64,000 bases of DNA from assembly GCF_024170465.1 (NCBI RefSeq), contig NZ_JALJYF010000001.1, positions 62,001 to 126,000 on the forward strand, in the 5' to 3' direction. Each line of letters starts with the position of its first letter. The first letter of the stretch is position 1. Origin of the DNA: Natronospira proteinivora (GTDB lineage: Bacteria > Pseudomonadota > Gammaproteobacteria > Natronospirales > Natronospiraceae). The notes beneath the pieces were generated by a model, which saw nothing but the letters and a program-made list of their open reading frames with translations, was not told the origin of the DNA and ran no database searches. The position numbers and the translations under genes were made by a program. This document shows, one piece after another, positions 36,697 through 39,950 of this stretch.

Positions 36697-38307
36697 TCAC
36701 ATTCGAAACACACCAAACCCATCGGGCTCGTCGATAGGCGCATTCAGCGACGCCGAAATCGCCATTCCGAGAACGCGCCGGGTATCCGCCGGATCAATGA
36801 TGCCGTCATCCCAGAGCCTGGCGGTGGCGTAGTAGGGATGGCCTTGGTCCTCGTACTGATCCCGGATGGCGTCCTTGAACTGTTCTTCTTCCTTTTCCGG
36901 CCAGTCCTTGCCCCGGGCTTCCAGACCATCCCGGCGCACGGTCGCCAGCACGGAAGCGGCCTGTTCGCCACCCATCACGGAGATACGGGCATTGGGCCAC
37001 ATCCACATCATGCGGGCCCCATAGGCCCGGCCACACATGGCGTAGTTGCCGGCCCCGAATGAGCCGCCGATGACCATGGTGAACTTGGGCACGCTGGCGG
37101 TGGCCACGGCGTTGACCATCTTGGCCCCGTCCTTGGCAATGCCGGCGTTCTCGTATTTCTTGCCCACCATGAAGCCGGTGATGTTCTGCAAGAACACCAG
37201 GGGAATGCCCCGTTGCTCGCAGAGCTGAATGAAGTGGGCGCCTTTCTGGGCGGACTCGGCAAAAAGAATGCCGTTGTTGGCAATGATGCCTACCGGATAA
37301 CCATGGATGCGGGCAAAGCCGGTAACCAGGGTCTTGCCGAACAGCGGCTTGAATTCATGCATCTCGGAGCCATCCACCACCCGGGCGATGATCTCGCGTA
37401 CATCCACCGGATGACGGGTTTCTTTTGGCGTAATCCCATAGAGATCATCTGCGGGATAAATCGGCTCCACAGGCTCAGCGATATCCAGGTCCACATACTT
37501 GCGGCCATTCAGACTGGCCACGATATCCCGGCAGATGGACAGGGCATGGGCGTCATCTTCGGCCAGATGATCCGCCACCCCGGAGATGCGGGTATGGACT
37601 TCACCGCCACCGAGGGATTCCGCATCCACTTCCTCACCCGTGGCGGCTTTTACCAGGGGCGGACCACCCAGGAAGATGGTGCCCTGTTCCCGCACGATGA
37701 TGGCTTCATCCGACATGGCGGGCACATAGGCCCCACCGGCGGTGCAGGAACCCATGACCACGGCGATCTGGGGAATGCCTTCAGCCGACATCTGGGCCTG
37801 GTTGTAGAAAATACGCCCGAAGTGTTCCTTGTCCGGGAAGACCTCGTCCTGCAGGGGCAAAAAGGCCCCGCCGGAGTCCACCAGATAAATGCAGGGCAGA
37901 CGGTTCTCCCGGGCGATTTCCTGGGCCCGGAGATGCTTTTTCACCGTCATGGGGTAGTAGGTGCCGCCCTTGACCGTGGCGTCATTGGCCACGATCACCA
38001 CTTCCCGACCTTGGACCCGACCGATGCCGGTAATCATGCCGGCGGCGGGGGCGGCATCGTCATACATGCCGTGGGCGGCCAGAGGGGAGAACTCCATAAA
38101 GGCGCTGCCATCATCCAGCAGGGCCTCGATCCGCTCCCGGGGCAAGAGCTTGCCCCGATCCGTATGCTTTTTCCGGGCCCGCTCACCACCGCCCAGGGCG
38201 GCCTTGCCCAGTTGATCCTTGAGGTCCGCCACCAGGCCTTCCATGTGTTCGGCATTGGCCTGAAAGGCCGGGTCGGAGCGATCGATTGTCGTCTTTAGGA
38301 CTGGCAT
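36697..38307 (-). CDS. liuB: 3-methylcrotonyl-CoA carboxylase, carboxyltransferase beta subunit
   Basis: Transfers the carboxyl group from biotin to 3-methylcrotonyl-CoA. The 536-residue protein has two crotonase-like halves, with [21 protein letters not shown] and [16 protein letters not shown] in the first and [21 protein letters not shown] plus [16 protein letters not shown] in the second, matching MCC beta. AAGGA precedes the ATG. A 274-bp MITE-like element begins 22 bp upstream, inside the spacer from the thiolase gene. Confidence 0.95.
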
Positions 38308-38329
38308 GGGAAAAATCCTTTGGATTTAG

Positions 38330-38603
38330 GGAACCTCTGATTAATCTATTCGCGCCCGCAGTTGGTGCTGAGAGCGGCTGCTTCAAGGCGCATTGCGCAG
38401 CACAGTAGCCTCTGCGCTACGGGCAAGCAATGCGCCTTGAAGCAGCCGCTCTCAGCGCCAACCCCCTGCGGGCCAACGGGATTTTCCCTCTCGACTTCGT
38501 TGCTCCTCGCTCATGTAGCACTGAGGCTACACTACGCTCGTCGCGCCTCGCGAGAGAAAAAATCCCGTTGGCTGCGGGCGCGAATGGATTAATCAGAGGT
38601 TCC
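38330..38603. mobile_element. 274-bp MITE-like element with 32-bp terminal inverted repeats
   Basis: The ends are GGAACCTCTGATTAATC and on (38330-38361) and the inverted copy (38572-38603), with one mismatch over 32 bp. TTA flanks both sides (38326-38328 and 38604-38606), a possible 3-bp target duplication with one extra G at the left end. Inside are two large hairpins: 38362-38396 with 38427-38461 (35-bp arms, one mismatch) and 38473-38493 with 38551-38571 (21-bp arms, two mismatches). No open frame for a transposase is present. Confidence 0.85.
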
Positions 38604-38607
38604 TTAT

Positions 38608-38761
38608 CAAGCTACAAGCCGCAAGCTACAAGCAGGGGAGAGGTTGCCTCTGACAAGTGCATTTCTCCGGACCGAGGTGCTTCTCCGCGGCCTATTTCAA
38701 GGCTGCAAGCTCGACGCTCTCGCGGCCTGCTTGCAGCTTGAAGCTTATAGCTTGCAGCTCC
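38608..38761. repeat. Heptamer-arm element E
   Basis: Left arm: CAAGCTA (38608), CAAGCCG, CAAGCTA, CAAGCAG (ends 38635). Right arm: CTGCTTG (38727), CAGCTTG, AAGCTTA, TAGCTTG, CAGCTCC (ends 38761). The core includes TTTCTCCGGACCGAGG, related to A and B. It abuts the MITE-like element with only four bases between. Confidence 0.8.
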
Positions 38762-38765
38762 CTCT

Positions 38766-39950
38766 TTATACCCGCTCAACCGCAATGGCCGTGGCCTCAC
38801 CACCGCCAATGCAGAGCGAAGCCACGCCGCGCTTGCCGCCGGTGCGTTTCAGATTATGCAGCAGGGTGGTGATGATGCGTGCGCCGGTGGCGCCGATGGG
38901 ATGGCCCAGGGCGCATGCTCCGCCGTTGATGTTGAGTCTATCGCGGGGAATGCCCACGTCATGCATGGCGGCCATGGCCACCACGGCAAAGGCCTCATTC
39001 ACTTCATATAGGTCCACATCGTCCACCGACCAGCCCAGCTTTTCCTGGAGGTTCTTGATGGCGCCCACTGGAGCGGTGGTGAACCACTCGGGCTCCTGGG
39101 CGTGTCCGGCGTGGCCGACGATCTTGGCCAGGGGCTGAAGACCACGCTTCTCAGCTTCGGAAGCGCGCATCATCACCAGCGCCGAGGCGCCATCGGAAAT
39201 GGAGGAAGAGGTGGCGGCGGTGACGGTGCCATCCTTCTTGAAGGCGGCACGCATGGACGGGATCTTGTCCACATTGCATTTGCCGGGCTCTTCATCCGTG
39301 TCCACCACGGTATCGCCCTTGCGGCCCTTGATGGTGACCGGAGTGATTTCATCATTGAAAAAACCCTTTTCCACGGCAGTCTGAGCCAGTTTCACTGACT
39401 CAATGGCGAACTCGTCCTGGGCCTCGCGGGTAAAGTTGTACTTGTCGGCACAGGTTTCGCCAAAGCCACCCATCATCTGTCCGTCATAGGGGTTCTGCAG
39501 GCCATCGAAGAACATGTGATCGATGACTTCCTGGTGACCCATGCGCATGCCGCCGCGAGCCTTGGGCAGGAGATAAGGGGCGTTGGTCATGGATTCCATG
39601 CCACCGACCACAATCACATCGGCCGAGCCGGCCGCGATCAGATCATGGCCCATCATGGCGGCCTTCATGCCGGAACCGCAGACCTTGTTGATGGTGGTGC
39701 AGCCGGTGCCCTTGTCGATGCCCGCGCCCAGGGAGGCTTGGCGGGCCGGGGCCTGGCCGAGACCGGCCGGCAGCACACAGCCGAAGATCACTTCGCTCAC
39801 ATCCGTGCTGCCCAGCTTGGCGTCTTCCATCACGGCCTGAATGGCCGCAGAACCCAGCTGCGGAGCTTGCGCACCGGAAAGACCGCCCTGGAAAGAACCA
39901 ATGGGGGTGCGGCGGGCGGCGGCGATGACGATGGGATCATTGCTAGACAT
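38766..39950 (-). CDS. Acetyl-CoA C-acyltransferase (thiolase)
   Basis: Thiolase of 394 residues. The nucleophile is Cys in NKVCGSGMKAAM, and the other active-site motifs are VNEAFAV, GGACALGHPIGATGAR and the C-terminal SLCIGGGEA. In this setting it could cleave acetoacetyl-CoA from leucine and 2-methylacetoacetyl-CoA from isoleucine; the second would match the HSD10-like gene at the end of the block. AGGAGG lies six bases before the ATG. Confidence 0.93.
   Translation of the reverse strand: MSSNDPIVIAAARRTPIGSFQGGLSGAQAPQLGSAAIQAVMEDAKLGSTDVSEVIFGCVLPAGLGQAPARQASLGAGIDKGTGCTTINKVCGSGMKAAMMGHDLIAAGSADVIVVGGMESMTNAPYLLPKARGGMRMGHQEVIDHMFFDGLQNPYDGQMMGGFGETCADKYNFTREAQDEFAIESVKLAQTAVEKGFFNDEITPVTIKGRKGDTVVDTDEEPGKCNVDKIPSMRAAFKKDGTVTAATSSSISDGASALVMMRASEAEKRGLQPLAKIVGHAGHAQEPEWFTTAPVGAIKNLQEKLGWSVDDVDLYEVNEAFAVVAMAAMHDVGIPRDRLNINGGACALGHPIGATGARIITTLLHNLKRTGGKRGVASLCIGGGEATAIAVERV

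Follow-up and report, generated by a model that had tools for sequence, protein, structure and literature searches.

A probable IS5-type miniature transposon with a hairpin-pair body between atoB- and liuB-like genes of Natronospira proteinivora

The window, a stretch of 64,000 nucleotides from the genome of Natronospira proteinivora, carries a 274-bp repeat-bounded element between two genes located on the minus strand. The features of this locus are listed below.

36697 to 38307, minus strand: liuB, acyl-CoA carboxylase carboxyltransferase subunit, the downstream neighbour, named from protein resemblance and from an earlier sequence-only reading of this DNA
38326 to 38329: left flank TTAG, a presumed target duplication (YTAR), by comparison with the YTAR duplications of sister copies
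38330 to 38361, plus strand: left terminal inverted repeat of 32 bp, the outer 17-18 bp of which match the end of an IS5-family IS
38361 to 38462, plus strand: arm A, a hairpin whose stem pairs 38361-38396 with 38427-38462, with tip 38397-38426 and core CAAGGCGC
38463 to 38471: inter-arm linker CCCCTGCGG, with a predicted 2-bp mini-stem
38472 to 38572, plus strand: arm B, a hairpin whose stem pairs 38472-38493 with 38551-38572; it is homologous to arm A on the other strand
38572 to 38603, minus strand: right terminal inverted repeat of 32 bp
38604 to 38607: right flank TTAT, the presumed second copy of the target duplication, altered at one base
38766 to 39950, minus strand: acetyl-CoA acetyltransferase-like gene (atoB type), upstream on the same strand, named from sequence resemblance alone

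The element opens at 38330 with GGAACCTCTGATTAATCTATTCGCGCCCGCAG and closes at 38603 with the inverted partner of that sequence. The terminal inverted repeats differ by one mismatch (97%) and extend outward to 35 nt at 94%; the spacing between these outer ends is 210. Inside them, the stem sides of arm A form an inverted repeat of 36 nt (97%) and those of arm B one of 22 nt (91%). The 17-bp end occurs twice within the window at up to 3 mismatches, against a chance expectation of 0.15. A single strand of the element is predicted to fold into a three-way junction made of an outer stem and the two arms, with an energy of -196.2 kcal/mol as compared to a mean of -100.7 for 200 shuffles; this is about 95 kcal/mol better (z -20.9), and none of the 200 shuffles reached as low a value. 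The only open reading frame of at least 80 amino acids inside the element (38430-38741) starts in arm A, extends past the element end and does not correspond to a transposase. Short, bounded by terminal inverted repeats and lacking a transposase gene, the element has the general makeup of a MITE.

The start of liuB at 38307 lies 22 bp from the element. On the other side, immediately after the right 4-bp flank, a repeat of the heptamer type, CAAGCTACAAGC, follows from 38608. The sequence-only reading had described the unit correctly in these respects, including its length, its 32-bp ends with one mismatch, its distance from liuB, its lack of a transposase and its heptamer neighbour, which stands behind the 4-bp flank; the two inner repeats that it had reported are also present, at 36 and 22 nt rather than 35 and 21 bp. 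No promoter or terminator match was found in the element, and an AAGGA stretch that may serve as the liuB ribosome-binding site lies outside it. Both other Natronospira genomes analyzed (G001 and G002) have an atoB-liuB gap without the element and with other repeats in its place. The repeats in this gap differ in each genome: the element and heptamers in the window (38308-38765), GTGAACAG-type repeats in G001 (L109) and two REPs of the RAYT type in G002 (L108).

Copies with these ends were found once in the element's own genome, in small number in G001 and in large number in G002. Sister copies are flanked by perfect 4-bp duplications (CTAA at L012, CTAG at L013 and TTAG at L062), which identify the target as the 4-bp YTAR and not TNA; YTAR is the published target of IS5 (PMC10359306). 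The flanks of the window copy, TTAG and TTAT, agree at three of four bases. An IS of 1178 bp in G001 (L102) has TTAG followed by GGAACCTCTGATTAATTC at its left end and a related repeat followed by CTAG at its right, where the match is a loose one (GGAAGGTCTGATCAATT). Its transposase scores 351 bits against the NF033581 IS5 family model, with a cut-off of 140, and is also above cut-off for PF01609 and PF05598. On the Methylomonas plasmid pUP202, an annotated IS5 transposase stands behind a GGAACCTCTGATTAATTC left end with TTAA and CTAA as flanks. Both partner ISs begin with GGAACCTCTGATTAATTC and have diverged right ends. An IS5-type DDE transposase together with a YTAR target places the partner IS in the IS5 family, while ends in common with an autonomous IS, target duplications at sister copies, and occurrence at multiple sites along with empty sites are the features by which the element is assigned to the MITEs.

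The sequence-only reading had proposed mobilization in trans, perhaps by an IS5-type transposase making TNA duplications. Its mobile element and IS5-type link are supported by the matching IS ends and the empty sites, whereas the TNA unit is not; the flanking TTA that it noted is present as read (TTAG/TTAT) and forms part of a YTAR unit with one changed base. It had also regarded a single copy without matching IS ends anywhere and with its site conserved across genera as evidence against mobility. The copy is indeed single in its own genome, but full-length ISs with a matching end exist in the congener G001 and on pUP202, and neither of the other Natronospira genomes has the element at this site.

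A DDE_Tnp_1 gene was detected neither in the element's own genome nor in G002, the genome richest in copies. Since its own genome yielded no such transposase gene, the window copy is probably stranded and immobile at present. Only the GGAACCTCTGATTAATTC type of end was tied to an IS; a search of plasmids for a second end type as an IS end gave nothing convincing, and the exact ends GGAACCTCTGATTAATCNATTCGCG had no match in the public genome collection. For some Natronospira relatives (L002, L003, L014, L026 and others), no clear target duplication borders the outer ends, suggesting that part of the family may spread in another way. At L011, L012, L013, L062 and L141, the copy directly follows an apparent stop codon, the TAA or TAG being within the YTAR target.

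Nucleotide searches with the element gave matches restricted to the same bacterial family. The exact arm-A pattern also matched the chromosome of a gammaproteobacterial MAG, bin397, where the same two arms have different stems and the ends AACCTATCTCATAATCC lie between two CTAG. A covariance model (R1) built on arm A matched 51 of 369 gammaproteobacterial genomes; these represent 41 genera and often had numerous hits in a single genome. Window arm A was among the training sequences and is matched by construction. Independently of training, the window element fits the two-arm family by its arm B match on the other strand, its layout, its TTAG flank and its spacing of 210. Among 19 genomes of the same order, 13 remained unmatched at E 0.01 and two of the six with matches were borderline, indicating that the model is not a generic detector of long hairpins. 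Three regularities lie outside what the model describes: neighbouring arm pairs are on opposite strands in 28 of 28 cases, terminal repeats surround the arm pair at an inner distance of mostly 199-204, and YTAR borders 43 of 80 left and 52 of 80 right ends, compared to a chance background of 2.2%.

Elements with placeable ends are mostly about 270 bp long and contain a pair of homologous arms, each of about 100 nt, in inverted orientation. Their end sequences form 18 clusters by shared 10-mers, although some singletons probably belong to larger clusters from which they have diverged, and about a dozen types is a safer count. One member, with CTAG next to GGGTCTGTTGACG ends, is on an Azotobacter chroococcum plasmid; this was the single match when two other family types were searched in plasmids and one in phages. 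The Natronospira body was not detected in plasmids, phages or E. coli genomes, and three patterns searched in viral contigs gave no match. Judging by these sequence comparisons, the hairpin bodies of distant genera appear to constitute one family occurring behind many end types.

The core kept in the arms reads CAAGGCG ... CGCAG ... CAAG ... GCAACGC.G. Over 113 arm matches, covariation scores 0.839 as compared to 0.211 after shuffling and at most 0.13 with partners slid, and 36 of 38 pairs vary on both sides; these values come from an alignment that is fitted to the model and leans to its structure, and from shuffles that do not preserve relatedness. Hardly any base of the basal stem is conserved across 62 clusters (below 80% identity), so its pairing is not due to shared sequence. 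A core mismatch, CAAGGC opposite CAACRC, is kept in 78 of 108 arms across many genera. Window arm A is the sole arm of the 108 in which the 3' side is GCCTTG, the full complement. Within Natronospira, an alignment of 15 cores has conserved arm tips and stems that vary yet remain complementary, 47 of 90 pairs showing at least two Watson-Crick types.

Two pairs of Natronospira copies, L002/L003 and L026/L028, have the 270-bp core turned round with respect to the flanks; the core is more similar (96-97%) than the flanks are (72-83%). Such relatives that are not MITE-like are embedded in longer palindromes with ill-defined ends of their own. For L026 and L028 of G001, nested palindromes of about 700 bp surround the two-arm core, which is inverted between these copies, and self-complementary stretches of about 290 bp lie beside it. 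G002 contains short palindromes of 34-61 bp that are barely more than the element's two ends, several of them flanked by YTAR (C40:1908-1941, C41:142648-142689, C67:15361-15415 and C26:8293-8353). Also in G002, about 80 bp are inserted within arm B of L018/L025 (C41:187266-187626), and L021, at the end of contig C52, consists of arm B only. The flanks of L021 are mutually reverse complementary, which is probably a fold-back assembly artefact at the contig end.

We interpret the element as a MITE, a non-autonomous transposon of the IS5 type whose body is a three-way junction, at a probability of about 0.82. A transposase of the IS5 family would have recognized its outer 17-18 bp in trans and placed it in a YTAR target in the atoB-liuB gap. 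The body would be a single ancestral quasi-palindromic hairpin of about 100 nt in duplicate, its two copies facing opposite ways. Since one body stands behind many end types, the hairpins seem to be the lasting part and the ends to have been exchanged or replaced, presumably tracking whichever YTAR-targeting transposase a lineage has. Complementarity of the stems is probably kept by template switching between the two sides as the sequence turns over, with selection maintaining the core. Window arm A looks like the product of one such correction that changed its 3' side to a full complement; template switching is reported to make and repair hairpins, and in a quasi-palindrome it yields block changes like this one (PMC8794818). 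The arms most likely act as folded DNA, for example by joining the two ends or binding a host factor. The broader proposal is that three-way-junction elements of about 270 bp make up an ancient superfamily spread across the Gammaproteobacteria, recognizable by its two inverted hairpin arms and their conserved core. Its members would exchange terminal repeats and thereby use different YTAR-targeting transposases, and their arms would act as folded DNA in transposition or maintenance. This proposal seems to us evenly poised.

One alternative is that the arms have no function and the element is an ordinary IS5 MITE with passive palindromes kept complementary through template switching alone. Stem sequence that is free while pairing is retained, the block change in window arm A and the documented ability of template switching to create and repair hairpins (PMC8794818) would all be expected in this case. 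However, blind correction should erase the core mismatch, which instead persists and has given way to full complementarity in one arm only, and arm spacing is near constant across dozens of genera; we consider passive arms unlikely, if still the most credible of the alternatives. A structured non-coding RNA or liuB regulatory leader with a selected RNA fold, placed between repeats by accident, could likewise account for the very strong fold and the covariation, and the window element would fall within an atoB-liuB transcript. In addition, G-T mismatches exceed A-C mismatches on the core strand (30 vs 8 in arm matches across the family), but this excess is concentrated at few positions of matches selected with an RNA model and is weak within Natronospira (16 vs 10 columns). 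The same site lacks the element in relatives, and copies occur at many unrelated places. The arms are always opposite, so that a single transcript exposes the core strand of one arm only, and the consistent orientation fits a role at the DNA level better than one strand-specific RNA. There is no promoter match, and Rfam 15 assigned the element to no family, giving only microRNA-type long-hairpin matches far under the gathering threshold. We regard a selected RNA or leader as quite improbable.

REPINs are inverted pairs of imperfect palindromes, as is the body of this element, and Y1_Tnp genes occur in all the Natronospira genomes (at least one in each), which could suggest a RAYT/REP-type element moved by a single-strand Y1 transposase. 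This is very improbable given the IS5-type ends and 4-bp YTAR duplications, which Y1 enzymes are not known to make. Different repeats, GTAGGAGCGNNTTNATNCGCG, flank the RAYT gene; they are unlike the palindromes of the element, which does not belong to the REPs or REPINs, and mobilization by RAYT was rejected. The RAYT-like Y1 transposase gene is in the same neighbourhood in all three genomes (L104 in G000, L105 in G001 and L103 in G002), and in G000 it is flanked by GTAGGAGCG..CGC REPs.

MITEs are normally defined by their parent IS. Hairpins common to dozens of genera with differing ends suggest that a non-coding body may outlast the transposases that move it. If so, many long hairpins scattered in gammaproteobacterial genomes would be one old family. 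Such a family may prove useful as a large natural data set for weighing template-switch hairpin repair against selection on shape, since its stem sequence is free, yet the pairing and one internal mismatch persist.

As a MITE, the element is of a known kind. A description of the two-arm core behind many ends was not found in the accessible text of open papers searched by topic and by sequence strings. REP/REPIN sequences with their RAYTs are also inverted imperfect-palindrome pairs scattered between genes, but REPs are 20-40 bp long with GTAG or CGTC tags and have another mobilizer (PMC3116915, PMC3733652). The R0, R2 and R6 repeats of Pseudomonas fluorescens have inverted ends of 24-43 bp and a proposed movement in trans by an IS transposase; they are shorter (up to 177 bp), and the accessible part of their description, by which we set them apart, reports no two-arm structure or shared core (PMC2718517). 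The QMITEs of Coxiella burnetii are likewise gammaproteobacterial MITEs with transcripts that would fold strongly, QMITE2 having direct repeats of 7-9 bp, terminal repeats of 23-29 bp and a core of 113-145 bp; in the accessible part of that source, no shared hairpin core is reported (PMC10969869). The closest likeness is to IS5-derived MITEs, which are also short, intergenic and without a transposase gene, with IS5-family ends and YTAR duplications (here at sister copies). Unlike in those MITEs, the interior of this element is not an IS remnant but an inverted pair of hairpins with a conserved core, which recurs behind many other ends in other genera.
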